Below, in pieces: positions 9,388-61,339 of a stretch of DNA of 64,000 nucleotides. The stretch's first letter is position 1. Each line of letters starts with the position of its first letter. Below the pieces are notes generated by a model. That model made no database searches, was not told where the DNA came from, and saw nothing but the letters and a program-made list of their open reading frames with translations. The position numbers and the translations under genes are program-made. This DNA comes from Parabacteroides sp. Marseille-P3160 (GTDB taxonomy: Bacteria > Bacteroidota > Bacteroidia > Bacteroidales > Tannerellaceae): NCBI RefSeq assembly GCF_900162725.1, contig NZ_LT799418.1, forward strand, positions 1,663,836-1,727,835, given 5' to 3'.

Positions 9388-9924
9388 ATGAAAGCAATCA
9401 GTAGTGCACCCCTCCGGGGCGTGTTGTCTATATTATTAGGACTGGCATTGATTATCTGGCCGGAAACGGCGATCACATACCTGGTGATTACCCTTGGAGT
9501 CTTGTTTATCCTTCCGGGTATATTTTCCCTGATCTCTTATTTTACCCGTCCGAAAGAGCTGGTTGGTTCACGTTTTCCGATCGAAGGAGCAGGAAGCATC
9601 TTGCTCGGTATCTGGCTCGTGGCGATGCCCGCTTTCTTTGTCAATATCGTGATGTATGTATTGGGAGCCTGCTTGTTGATTGCGGGGATCCAACAGTTTT
9701 TCACCTTATTGAGGGCACGGAAGTATTACTGGGTGCCTTGGGGATTGTATGTGATACCTTCCCTGTTACTTATTACGGGTATTATTGTGTTGTTGAACCC
9801 GTTTGATACAGCTTCGGCGGTCTTCATTGTTTTCGGCATTGCGATCGTTGCCTATGGCGTCAGTGAACTGGTCAACTGGTATCGGTTCCGTCCGCAGACA
9901 GCAAAAGTGATCGATAATTATTAA
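9388..9924 (+). CDS. DUF308 / HdeD-like membrane protein
   Basis: A 178-residue integral membrane protein of the DUF308 family, whose best-known member is the acid-stress protein HdeD. Six hydrophobic segments are visible, arranged as three similar pairs, for example GVLSILLGLALIIWP, GAGSILLGIWLVAMPA and PSLLLITGIIVLLNP; the repeated G-x-x-x-I-L-x-G-x-x-L-x-x-x-P pattern is the family hallmark. Its function in Bacteroidetes is unknown. A TATCTTCG box just upstream could be a variant -7 element. It is 65 bp before the next gene on the same strand. Confidence 0.88.
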   Translation: MKAISSAPLRGVLSILLGLALIIWPETAITYLVITLGVLFILPGIFSLISYFTRPKELVGSRFPIEGAGSILLGIWLVAMPAFFVNIVMYVLGACLLIAGIQQFFTLLRARKYYWVPWGLYVIPSLLLITGIIVLLNPFDTASAVFIVFGIAIVAYGVSELVNWYRFRPQTAKVIDNY

Positions 9925-19919: not shown

Positions 19920-20255
19920 AGGATTTTATTTATTCCCTGCTTTCTTTCCGGAAAACAATCTGAGGGGTCGCTCTATTTTTCTTCGCTTTTGTCCGACTCG
20001 AATTTTAATTCAATTGAATTCCCCTCTTTTTCAGGGAAGCCAACGCTCATGCTGTCTGTCATACCCTTTTTAAGAAAAATGAATATCCGATTGAATCCGT
20101 TCGGCGTAGGCGATTGTCTATTCTGCCGCCCAGTTCCAAGGTAATAGCGGAGAGTAATCCAACCAACAGTTGAGACTGCGGAAGTCTTTCTCTCCTGTAT
20201 TAGATGCAAGTAATAATGCCAATGGGGATCCAATAGGGAAAGTGCAAACTTTCCT
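19920..20255. other. Gene-free interval between divergent helicase and tgt genes
   Basis: No convincing gene. A 117-codon leftward frame (19973-20326) exists, but its N-terminal third is just the translation of the tandem repeat next to it and it matches no family I know. Confidence 0.5.
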
Positions 20256-20340
20256 TTCACCGGCCAGTGAAAGATCTTCCACCGGCCAGTGAAAGATCTT
20301 TTGCCGGCCAGTAGAAAATCTTTCACCAGCGGGCGAAAAT
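20256..20340. repeat. Tandem array of 22-bp units, core CCGGCCAGT
   Basis: Units begin at 20260, 20282, 20304 and 20326, exactly 22 bp apart. Each carries CCGGCCAGT followed by a GAAAGATCTT-like block; the fourth is degenerate (CCAGCGGGCGAAAA). The near-palindrome CACCGGCCAGTG and the palindrome AAGATCTT alternate. A further decayed unit may precede 20256. The array sits in the divergent intergenic region upstream of tgt. Confidence 0.9.
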
Positions 20341-37080: not shown

Positions 37081-37235
37081 AGAGAGTGCGTTAAAAATCA
37101 ATTGCTTATCAATTGTAAAAATGATAGCTATGAATGAACGCAGCCATAACTATGAATCGGTGCAGTCATAACTATGAATGAATACATTTATAGTTATGAA
37201 TTCTTGCAAAGCTTTCTTCTTCTGGCGCACTCTCT
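37081..37235. repeat. Tandem array of 22-bp units, core ATAACTATGAAT, inside an inverted repeat
   Basis: CTATGAAT or TTATGAAT occurs at 37128, 37150, 37172 and 37194, exactly 22 bp apart. Unit 1 has the palindrome ATAGCTAT, units 2 and 3 ATAACTAT, and unit 4 its reverse complement ATAGTTAT; about 9 bp between cores are variable. The array is flanked by inverted 10-bp arms (37081-37090, 37226-37235) that continue into A and T runs. It lies upstream of the beta-helix lipoprotein gene and after pepD. Confidence 0.88.
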
Positions 37236-58174: not shown

Positions 58175-60427
58175 TTATTTCGGACTGACGCCCCATTCCT
58201 GTGACGGTGCAGGGCCCATTTCCAATTCCAGTGCGCCTCCGGCGGTAATGTCTTTGAAATCGATTGATACTGAGTTGTGGGCAACTCCGTTCAGTTTGGC
58301 GGATTGAACGTAGAGATTGGCCGCACTGTTATTATGGGCAACCACCCGGAACGTCTTGCCGTTTCCGACCTGAATCGTCGCTTCGTCGATGACCGGGCTG
58401 CCGATGATGTATTTGCCTCCGGCCGGCTCTACCTGATAAAGGCCTAATGCTGAAAGTACATACCAGGCTGACATCTGGCCTACGTCTTCATTACCGCACA
58501 GGCCGGCCGGCTGGTCGGTGTATAATTCACGTAGGATCTGACGTACTTTTTCCGCTGTTTTCCACGGCTGGCCGACATAAGAGTAAAGATAGACGATATG
58601 GTGGCTCGGTTCGTTGCCGTGCGCATATTGTCCGATCAGTCCGCTGATGTCGGGAGAGGCGTCTTTACCTAAATCACCCTCTGCGATAAAGAGTGAATCT
58701 AACTTTTGGATGAAGGCTTCTTTACTGCCGAACAGTCCAACCAGGCCGTCCACATCATGAGGAACCAACCAGGTGTATTGCCAGGCATTGCCTTCTGTAT
58801 AGTCATTCTCCCGGTGAATGGATTGGAACGGATTGAAAGGCGTCCTGAACTTTCCGTCGGAAGAACGTCCCCGCATAAATCCGACCGATGGATCGAAAAA
58901 GTGCGTATAAGCTTTACTCCTTTTCAGGAAATAGTCCGCATCTTCGGTTTTACCCATTTTTTTGGCTACTTGGGCGACGCTCCAGTCGGCCAATGCATAT
59001 TCCATCGTCTTGGCGACCGATTCATTCTCTTTGTCATAAGGGATATAACCGTATTCTTTCAGGTACTTCAATCCGCGTTCGTCCAGCATGGCCGAAGTTT
59101 TCATTGCTTCGAAAGCCAGTTCCTTGTCGAATCCGGTGAAGCCCTTCAACAGTGCGTCCGCTACTACCGGAATGCCCGGATTGCCGACCATACAGTCCGT
59201 TTCATTTCCCATGAGGTGCCATACCGGCAATTTACCCTGTTCCTTGTAGATGGTCAGCATCGTCTGGATGAGATCCGGTATTTTTTCGGGATGAATCAAC
59301 GTAATCAGCGGATGGGCGGCGCGATATGTATCCCAAAGGGAGAACGTGGTGTAGTTGGTGAAGGACGCATTGGCGTGAGGTTGAAGATCCGCTCCGAAAT
59401 AATCCTTGTTGACGTCGCAAAATTCGGAAGGTGCGATCATCGTGTGGTAAAGCGCCGTATAGAAAATACGTTTGATTTTGTTGTCTGCGCTTTGTATGTC
59501 GACTTTATTCAGTTCCTCGTTCCAGGCCCGGTCGGCTTTGGCGATGGTTCCTTCGAAATCCCAGCCGGGCAGCTCGGTTTGCATATTCAGCTTGGCGTTT
59601 TCGATACTGACGGGGGAGAGGGCGACTTTCACTAAAACCGTTTCCTTATCCGACGTCCGGAATGACGCTTCGCCATAGGCCTCTTTTGTTACCTCTTTGT
59701 TGTCGATTTTGCGGGTAACATTGCGGGTGGCAAATGATTGGATCGGCTTGGAGAAAATGGCCGTAAAATAAACCCGTTGGTCTTTTGCCCAACCGTTGGA
59801 AAAGCGGTAGCCGGAGACAACGCTGTCGTTTTCCTGTATAATCTTGCCTTCTGCCAGTTGATCCCAGCCGATGCCATGCTCCAGGTCGATAATTACCTTG
59901 GCGCTGTCCGATTGGGGGAACGTATATTTATGGAAGCCGACTCGTTTTGTGGCAGTCAGTTCTACATCGATATGAAAGCGATCCAGATGGACGGAATAAT
60001 AGCCGGGTTTTACTTTTTCCTTTTCGTGGGAGAATAAGGAATAGATTCCGGAAGCGGGATCTTTCAGGTCGCCTCTTGTGAGCGCTACCTGTCCGGTTGC
60101 CGGCATAAATGAAATATCGCCCAGGTCACCGATGCCGGTGCCGCTTAGGTGGGTATGTCCGAATCCGATGATCGTGGAGTCGGAATAGTGATAACCGGAG
60201 CACCAATCCCAGCCCTGGCTATAGTTCGTCGGGCCGAGTTGTACCAGTCCGAACGGCACATTGGCTCCTACAAACACATGGCCGTGATCACCGGTACCGA
60301 TGTAAGGGTCAACATATTGGGTCAAATTGTTCAACTGGCTTGCCGTTTCCTGTTTGGTTCCCTGGCAGGAAAGCAACGCCAATGAAAGAGGGAGATACAC
60401 GCAGACTTGCGTACAAAATGTTCTCAT
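58175..60427 (-). CDS. GH92 family alpha-mannosidase, lipoprotein
   Basis: A 750-residue GH92 enzyme, a calcium-dependent exo-alpha-mannosidase family expanded in gut Bacteroidetes for host and yeast N-glycans. The lipobox is LALLSCQGT. Family signatures: QYVDPYIGTGDHGHVFVGAN, PFGLVQLGPTN, TIIGFGHTHLSGTGIGDLGD, and in the catalytic domain MGNETDCMVGNPGIP, GNAWQYTWLVPHDVDGL and NEPSHHIVYLYSYVGQPWKT. Linkage (alpha-1,2, -1,3 and so on) cannot be assigned by eye. It is a single gene, without a SusCD pair next to it. Confidence 0.95.
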   Translation of the reverse strand: MRTFCTQVCVYLPLSLALLSCQGTKQETASQLNNLTQYVDPYIGTGDHGHVFVGANVPFGLVQLGPTNYSQGWDWCSGYHYSDSTIIGFGHTHLSGTGIGDLGDISFMPATGQVALTRGDLKDPASGIYSLFSHEKEKVKPGYYSVHLDRFHIDVELTATKRVGFHKYTFPQSDSAKVIIDLEHGIGWDQLAEGKIIQENDSVVSGYRFSNGWAKDQRVYFTAIFSKPIQSFATRNVTRKIDNKEVTKEAYGEASFRTSDKETVLVKVALSPVSIENAKLNMQTELPGWDFEGTIAKADRAWNEELNKVDIQSADNKIKRIFYTALYHTMIAPSEFCDVNKDYFGADLQPHANASFTNYTTFSLWDTYRAAHPLITLIHPEKIPDLIQTMLTIYKEQGKLPVWHLMGNETDCMVGNPGIPVVADALLKGFTGFDKELAFEAMKTSAMLDERGLKYLKEYGYIPYDKENESVAKTMEYALADWSVAQVAKKMGKTEDADYFLKRSKAYTHFFDPSVGFMRGRSSDGKFRTPFNPFQSIHRENDYTEGNAWQYTWLVPHDVDGLVGLFGSKEAFIQKLDSLFIAEGDLGKDASPDISGLIGQYAHGNEPSHHIVYLYSYVGQPWKTAEKVRQILRELYTDQPAGLCGNEDVGQMSAWYVLSALGLYQVEPAGGKYIIGSPVIDEATIQVGNGKTFRVVAHNNSAANLYVQSAKLNGVAHNSVSIDFKDITAGGALELEMGPAPSQEWGVSPK

Positions 60428-60467
60428 GAGTTTATTATATTGGGGTTGTAAAAATTCTTCTCAGATG

Positions 60468-60497
60468 CGAAGGTAGTAAATCCTCCTGGCAAAACAA
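60468..60497 (-). promoter_or_regulatory. Promoter of the GH92 gene
   Basis: On the minus strand: TTG at 60497-60495, 19 bp spacer, TACCTTCG at 60475-60468, a one-base variant of TAnnTTTG. The leader is about 35 bases. Confidence 0.65.
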
Positions 60498-60516
60498 GTT
60501 AAGATACTTTTAAAAT

Positions 60517-60595
60517 CGAGTATACTGGATGGACATTTTCAGTATACTCAATTCACCATTCCAGTATACTCGATAAATGCATTCAGTATACTCGT
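60517..60595. repeat. Tandem array of 22-bp units, core AGTATACT
   Basis: The 8-bp palindrome AGTATACT occurs at 60519, 60541, 60563 and 60585, exactly 22 bp apart, with variable 12-14 bp between. The first unit reads CGAGTATACTG and the last its reverse complement CAGTATACTCG; A and T runs flank them, so the array has inverted ends. A decayed unit may start at 60497. The array fills the space between the GH92 and rplU promoters. Confidence 0.93.
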
Positions 60596-60611
60596 TTTTT
60601 TGTAATTATTC

Positions 60612-60642
60612 TTGCATAATACATGAAGAATGAATACTTTTG
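60612..60642 (+). promoter_or_regulatory. Promoter of rplU-rpmA
   Basis: TTG at 60612-60614, 20 bp spacer, TACTTTTG at 60635-60642, a full Bacteroidetes-type promoter. Confidence 0.85.
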
Positions 60643-60649
60643 CGGTCTG

Positions 60650-60727
60650 AATTCTGCAGAGGGTAGACAAGCGGAGCCGAAGAAGGCGCCCACCCCCGGG
60701 AGGTAACCTGTTATAGAAGAAGAACAG
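60650..60727 (+). other. GC-rich 5' leader of rplU
   Basis: About 80 transcribed bases with GC-rich blocks (GGCGCCCACCCCCGGGAGG, 60684-60702) that can fold. Ribosomal protein leaders often bind their product; no known L21 leader was identified by eye. Confidence 0.35.
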
Positions 60728-61045
60728 ATGTACGTAATCGTAGAAATTAACGGTCAGCAGTTTAAGGCTGAACAAGGGAAGAAGTTATTCGTTCACCACA
60801 TTCAGCATGCTGAAAGCGGCGCTGTAGTGGAATTTGACAAAGTGCTGTTGGTGGACAAAGACGGGAGTGTAGAAGTAGGCGCTCCTACAGTAGAAGGAGC
60901 GAAGGTGGTATGTGAAGTACTTTCTCCGCTGGTAAAAGGTGATAGAGTCTTGATTTTCCACAAAAAAAGGAGAAAAGGACATCGCAAGTTGAACGGTCAC
61001 CGTCAACAATTCACCGAAGTGAGTATTAAAGAGATTGTAGCTTAA
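60728..61045 (+). CDS. rplU: 50S ribosomal protein L21
   Basis: A 105-residue L21 that binds 23S rRNA in the large subunit. It starts [20 protein letters not shown] and ends with the RNA-binding part [20 protein letters not shown] followed by [10 protein letters not shown]. Length is normal. rpmA follows by 21 bp, the standard rplU-rpmA unit. Confidence 0.98.
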
Positions 61046-61066: not shown

Positions 61067-61339
61067 ATGGCACATAAAAAAGGAGTCGGTAGTTCCAAGA
61101 ACGGCCGCGAATCGCATAGCAAACGATTAGGTGTGAAGCTTTTCGGTGGTGAATTAGCCAAAGCCGGCAACATTCTCGTCCGCCAGAGAGGCACGGTACA
61201 TCATCCGGGGGAAAACGTAGGAATCGGTAAAGATCATACGTTGTACGCCTTGACGGATGGAGTCGTTACCTTCCGCAAAGGAAAAAACGAACGGTCATTC
61301 GTTTCGATCCAGCCCAAGCAACCGGTCGCGGAAGCGTAA
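61067..61339 (+). CDS. rpmA: 50S ribosomal protein L27
   Basis: A 90-residue L27, whose N-terminal tail reaches the peptidyl transferase centre. It begins [20 protein letters not shown] and continues [20 protein letters not shown], the family signature. There is no N-terminal extension of the kind cleaved in Firmicutes and no need for processing beyond Met removal. It ends at a strong terminator. Confidence 0.98.

Follow-up and report, generated by a model that had tools for sequence, protein, structure and literature searches.

A palindrome repeat of 22-bp period upstream of rplU in a Parabacteroides genome, probably scattered by transposition

BrickBuilt, a MITE of Porphyromonas gingivalis, carries 23-nt repeats, always lies between genes and is predicted to form stem loops, and segments of it have bidirectional promoter activity in Escherichia coli (Klein et al. 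2015, PMC4596501). The bacterial non-coding satellites surveyed by Subirana and Messeguer have a fixed length of 20-23 nt (and also of 52 nt) and unrelated sequences; they are called enigmatic there, and a protein polymerising on DNA is suggested (PMC8161180). Here we analyse an array of 22-bp period which lies upstream of rplU in Parabacteroides sp. Marseille-P3160, within a stretch of 64,000 nucleotides referred to below as the window. For Bacteroidales, a search of the open-access literature turned up no description of palindrome families phased at 22 bp and bearing several types of terminal inverted repeat (TIR).

The palindrome AGTATACT occurs exactly at 60519, 60541, 60563 and 60585, with no fifth copy in the 64-kb window, against 0.37 copies expected by chance; none of 100 shuffles reached four. 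All start-to-start distances between successive units are 22 bp, which confirms the spacing given in the first-pass annotation of this DNA. Its further claim that the first and last units are inverted copies of each other is borne out by an inverted 11-mer (CGAGTATACTG/CAGTATACTCG) common to units 1 and 4, and 60515-60529 is complementary to 60560-60574 at 15 of 15 positions. The promoter consensus of Bacteroidetes is TTG, 19-21 bp, TAnnTTTG. With -33 elements at 60495-60497 on the minus strand and at 60612-60614 on the plus strand (Table 1), the array fills the gap between both and ends about 17 bp short of the latter, so the placement described earlier agrees with the promoters as read from the sequence. 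All palindromes were also said to lie on one face of the DNA, 22 bp being about two helical turns. This needs correcting: at 10.5 bp per turn 22 bp amounts to about 2.1 turns, so that the face would drift by about 34 degrees per unit, and strict phasing requires a pitch near 11 bp per turn.

Table 1. Features of the rplU locus, other arrays in the window, and families of period-22 arrays
Feature	Position	Strand	Remarks
Gene called GH92, 750 aa	58175..60427	-	GH92 is the assignment of the first-pass annotation
Putative GH92 promoter: -33 TTG, N19, -7 TACCTTCG	60468..60497	-	Read from sequence; -33 at 60497-60495, -7 at 60475-60468
Left arm TCCTGGCAAAACAAGTTAAGATACTTTTAAAATCG	60484..60518	+	Local alignment; resembles left arm of complete F1a elements
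Array of four AGTATACT palindromes, period 22 bp	60519..60592	.	Read from sequence
Array end CGTTTTTTT (T-run)	60593..60601	+	Right terminal repeat not recognisable
rplU promoter: -33 TTG, N20, -7 TACTTTTG	60612..60642	+	Conserved in relatives from about 60606 on; -33 at 60612-60614, -7 at 60635-60642
rplU (L21), 105 aa	60728..61045	+	Followed by rpmA
rpmA (L27)	61067-61339		Downstream of rplU
Second array, F4 (CCGGCCAGTGAAAGATCTTT)	20254..20327	.	Tandem Repeats Finder
Third array, F2 (CATAACTATGAA)	37124..37182	.	Tandem Repeats Finder; inverted AGAGAGTGCG/CGCACTCTCT ends around it
Family F1			AGTATACT/AGTGCACT; family of the array at 60519..60592
Family F2			TTCATAGTTATGA
Family F3			CTGTGAAACACGTGTTTCACAG, itself a 22-bp perfect palindrome
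Family F4			CCGGCCAGTGAAAGATCTTT

Across the 4.76-Mb genome the motif AGTATACT-N14-AGTATACT, allowing at most two mismatches, has 70 matches on each strand, where a reversed control has 1; in 60 relatives it has essentially none. Array counts were made over 2.8 Mb of the chromosome, an array being defined as at least three units in which an exact 8-mer returns at a constant lag. Comparison of lags from 17 to 28 yielded 49 arrays at lag 22 and none at lags 17-21 and 23-28; according to codon-model gene calls none of the 49 lies in coding sequence, and for 31 the consensus is significantly palindromic. These 49 belong mainly to four families unrelated in sequence, F1-F4, and the number of families is at least four. 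The same 2.8 Mb holds about 25 occurrences of the AGTATACT/AGTGCACT family and some 50-90 arrays of this period overall. Period 22 is likewise dominant in 1.2 Mb from other Bacteroidales, where arrays of at least three units numbered 15 at 22, 4 at 23, 3 at 24, 2 at 21 and 1 at 27, and where the sequences of the period-22 arrays differ from those found here. F1 arrays lie between convergent genes in 7 of 20 cases, against 7.6% expected (P = 0.0005), and F3 arrays between divergent genes in 11 of 15 (after merging), against 36% (P = 0.003); the F3 arrays are mostly in wide divergent intergenic regions, for example at C5:2446703-2446766 and 2791542-2791599. Identical F2 arrays are found about 1.6-1.8 kb apart at C5:1350184/1351955 and 1366344/1367938, apparently through local tandem duplications that took in the array.

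There is good evidence in the sequences that at least one of these families moves as a small transposon. Five F1 copies, designated F1a, can be aligned from end to end and have inverted 14-bp ends (ATGATTATCCGCAT/ATGCGGATAATCAT) with 0-1 mismatches. Their flanking duplications agree at 10/10, 9/10, 9/10, 8/10 and 4/10 bases, where the chance of 9/10 or better is 0.0001 (under a null model without runs of N), and the target duplications of complete F1a elements measure 9-10 bp. One copy is 118 bp long and the others are 161-162 bp, a difference of 44 bp, or twice 22. The F1a copies have the terminal inverted repeats and target-site duplications of MITEs, and as short non-coding copies (118-162 bp) they are dispersed over intergenic DNA. 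A second F1 group has quite different ends (GRGGCTGTCYAAAAAG), and those around F2 arrays are different again (GGRTGYGTCAAAAG), so that array type is tied to no single transposase. In 2.8 of the 4.76 Mb there was no convincing transposase-sized pair of the F1a ends that might represent an autonomous parent. The copy in the window is 74% identical to a complete element over 117 bp. Its left arm retains TCCTGGCAAA at the right distance, with a local alignment score of 14 (P = 0.0014 against intergenic 60-mers), while the right arm gives P = 0.71, and neither a right terminal repeat nor a target duplication can be discerned in this copy. Erosion or truncation of an element is the best reading of this copy, its membership being drawn from similarity to a family whose other copies display the element structure.

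The first-pass annotation had proposed a search for the array upstream of rplU in related genomes. When 60400-60760 was compared with 125 genomes of the family, 105 matched, nearly all from about 60606 or later. The matched part is the rplU promoter and leader, and the array part had no match at rplU in any of these 105 genomes, in a collection drawn at family level in which the genome's own genus has no second member. In two relatives, L042 and L062, rplU likewise has a homologue of the GH92 gene (69-70% identity) as its divergent neighbour, and the intergenic regions there contain neither a 22-bp repeat nor AGTATACT. Absence of the array from close relatives had been named in the first-pass annotation as a refutation of its reading, and at family level the array is indeed absent. 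Conservation of the array upstream of rplU across Bacteroidales was considered and rejected: the 22-bp arrays that relatives have there (L017, L025, L031, L034, L035, L066, L070, L078) are their own and unrelated, and they were not counted as conservation since they are about as frequent as estimated for a long intergenic region. That of L078, a Tannerellaceae metagenome genome, is a six-unit array of AGTCGTATACTTATCCTAGATG at 9602-9738, some 300-400 bp upstream of rplU. Separately, conservation of the 5' leader of rplU (CTGCAGAGGGTA...CCACCCCCGGGA...AACCTGTT, 60645-60727) extends across Tannerellaceae and, in looser form, Bacteroidales. This leader matched no Rfam leader family at E up to 1 and is possibly an L21 leader RNA absent from the Rfam listing; over the array and leader together, Rfam gave no family with a credible score, the best (E = 0.07) being a chance miRNA match.

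The individual units were also compared. The two bases at the centre were tallied over 71 F1 units: AT in 37, GC in 28, TA in 2, GT in 3 and AC in 1. They are paired in 94% of the units, and permutation lowers this to 48%; the count is unbiased, in that palindromic cores were not required, and the units in it are not independent events. A unit of mixed centre reads AGTGTACT. In F1a copies that are 91-96% identical, a given unit may read AGTATACT in one copy and AGTGCACT in another. Spacer cores from one array resemble each other (33%) no more than those from different arrays do (35%), and yet the 22-bp distance is kept. Paired centres, free spacers and fixed spacing together fit a dimeric protein bound in helical register, and the pattern is, on this comparison of units, unlike the outcome of recent tandem duplication. 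Selection is not the only possible source of pairing at the centre: template-switch correction could have produced it, or two founder types of unit could have been copied. In F2 the centre is asymmetric, GT or AC in 76 of 80 units, so perfect palindromy is not general.

It is tempting to suggest, then, that the array represents one copy, partly eroded, of a MITE-like element that is dispersed between genes and carries palindromes at exactly 22-bp spacing. Its absence from the relatives would imply that in this lineage the element inserted, or persisted, close upstream of the rplU promoter. The palindrome repeat was probably scattered over the genome by transposition. The palindromes would most likely be sites for a putative dimeric DNA-binding protein, either host-encoded or derived from the world of mobile elements, whose molecules would occupy neighbouring sites, two turns apart, on many arrays around the chromosome. 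A bound array, covering some 75-110 bp, would keep the promoters of GH92 and rplU apart; mild repression or insulation of these promoters could follow, any such effect being a local by-product. The geometry of dimer sites is supported by the pattern of the units; to the account as a whole, with sites acting genome-wide, we give about an even chance. The earlier suggestion of cooperative binding by a dimeric protein would stand, given paired centres, free spacers and a near-invariant 22 bp, but the two neighbouring promoters would not be its purpose. The asymmetric centres of F2, the indistinct right end of the window copy and its lack of a target duplication count against this account, as does the folding of most families into long hairpins, better than with shuffled spacers.

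That folding is an argument for regarding the array as a fold-back element that works at the level of RNA or single-stranded DNA. A long hairpin would then terminate transcripts arriving from either side, or make them more stable, and the periodicity would merely follow from the structure of the arms. An A-run precedes the array and a T-run follows it; the RNA fold of 60505-60605 has z = -8.2 on the plus strand and -5.8 on the minus strand; and with the cores kept, real spacers fold better than shuffled ones in most arrays of families F1, F2 and F3, for which z averages -1.8, -3.9 and -3.4, respectively. This folding, together with the enrichment of F1 between convergent and of F3 between divergent genes, makes a hairpin or terminator role possible, although a hairpin could form without a core every 22 bp, and the paired change sits at the centre of the palindrome, which would be the loop of a one-unit hairpin. 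Mirror units share the centre type only weakly above chance (59% against 43%), and the window copy lies between two promoters, upstream of both start sites, where there is little for a terminator to do. We regard a hairpin function as possible rather than probable. The TIRs and target duplications of related copies, the strictly non-coding location of the arrays and the absence from the rplU site of relatives would suit a dead MITE insertion, its repeats made by tandem duplication, binding no protein and having no effect. Simple duplication predicts spacers that are alike within an array, whereas here the spacers differ while cores and the 22 bp are kept, and one exact period is common to four unrelated families; passive filler seems to us unlikely.

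The first-pass annotation inclined towards a dedicated operator or insulator for the rplU and GH92 promoters, and the exact placement between the two -33 elements does favour one. This control or insulation of the two promoters did not survive as the main reading: the array belongs to a dispersed, MITE-like intergenic family present at about 25 other places, and it is missing both from L062 and L042, in which the gene pair is kept, and from rplU in the 105 matched genomes, all of which speaks against a custom device and renders it highly improbable. The locus is a warning against taking a mobile repeat for a custom operator. A wider version of the protein-binding account may also be entertained, namely that a single chromosome-wide protein system of Bacteroidales recognises dimeric sites only at a 22-bp repeat, each species having evolved its own arrays, which several unrelated MITEs would have spread as loading or polymerisation platforms; the period would then stay constant while sequences and transposon ends differ. 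Such a system seems doubtful.

Several other classes of repeat resemble the arrays in part. Like REP/RAYT and other palindromic intergenic repeats, they are dispersed intergenic palindromes, but F1a differs in having TIRs and 9-10 bp target duplications, and no RAYT gene was found flanked by the same palindrome. A RAYT-like Y1 transposase gene of 209 aa lies at C5:1729800-1730424 on the minus strand, about 2 kb past the end of the window; it is flanked by GTAGG-type hairpin repeats of its own, not by period-22 arrays. A RAYT/REP origin was rejected because this only Y1 transposase, 5.6 kb away, carries other repeats. Plasmid origins contain iterons that are protein sites, for example those of 22 bp in R6K; here too (putative) protein sites recur about every 22 bp, but their short arrays number in the dozens and are spread around the chromosome beside ordinary genes, and no replication initiator gene adjoins the array in the window. 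In CRISPR arrays, repeats of about 23-47 bp alternate with unique spacers that are similarly long, and cas genes accompany them, whereas this array has 8-bp repeats, 14-bp spacers and four units. Elsewhere, C5:1-1600000 has a very strong 77-bp periodicity (5535 recurring 9-mers), which suggests a long CRISPR array.

By analogy, the closest precedent is BrickBuilt, which like the present arrays belongs to Bacteroidales, is intergenic and MITE-like with small inverted-repeat ends, occurs in many copies and is limited to its species; both have a tandem unit of about two helical turns and predicted long stem loops (PMC4596501). BrickBuilt, however, has 23-nt direct repeats without spacers, a non-repeated leader and tail, and IS5-like ends (GAGACCTTTGCA), and the available part of that report mentions no palindromic unit (PMC4596501). 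The arrays described here have instead a period of exactly 22 bp, a conserved palindrome, a freely varying spacer and several TIR types, with ends that differ from GAGACCTTTGCA.

The satellites share with the present arrays their constant size, the presence of several unrelated families in one genome, their intergenic location, species specificity and a short conserved motif in each repeat (PMC8161180). In this genome too, several unrelated, species-specific, non-coding families have one constant length. The satellite survey took at least four repeats (PMC8161180), a number reached by the window array with its four; most present arrays have 2-4 units, and many sister arrays 2-3. Palindromic and MITE-borne units are a feature of the present arrays undescribed for satellites in the accessible part of the survey (PMC8161180). 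Satellites are called enigmatic since their length is fixed and their sequence is not, and a single genome here offers a compact, testable case of this, with at least four families of one exact period, mostly paired change within the palindrome, free spacers, and arrays that could serve as defined DNA baits in a hunt for the protein, if one exists.
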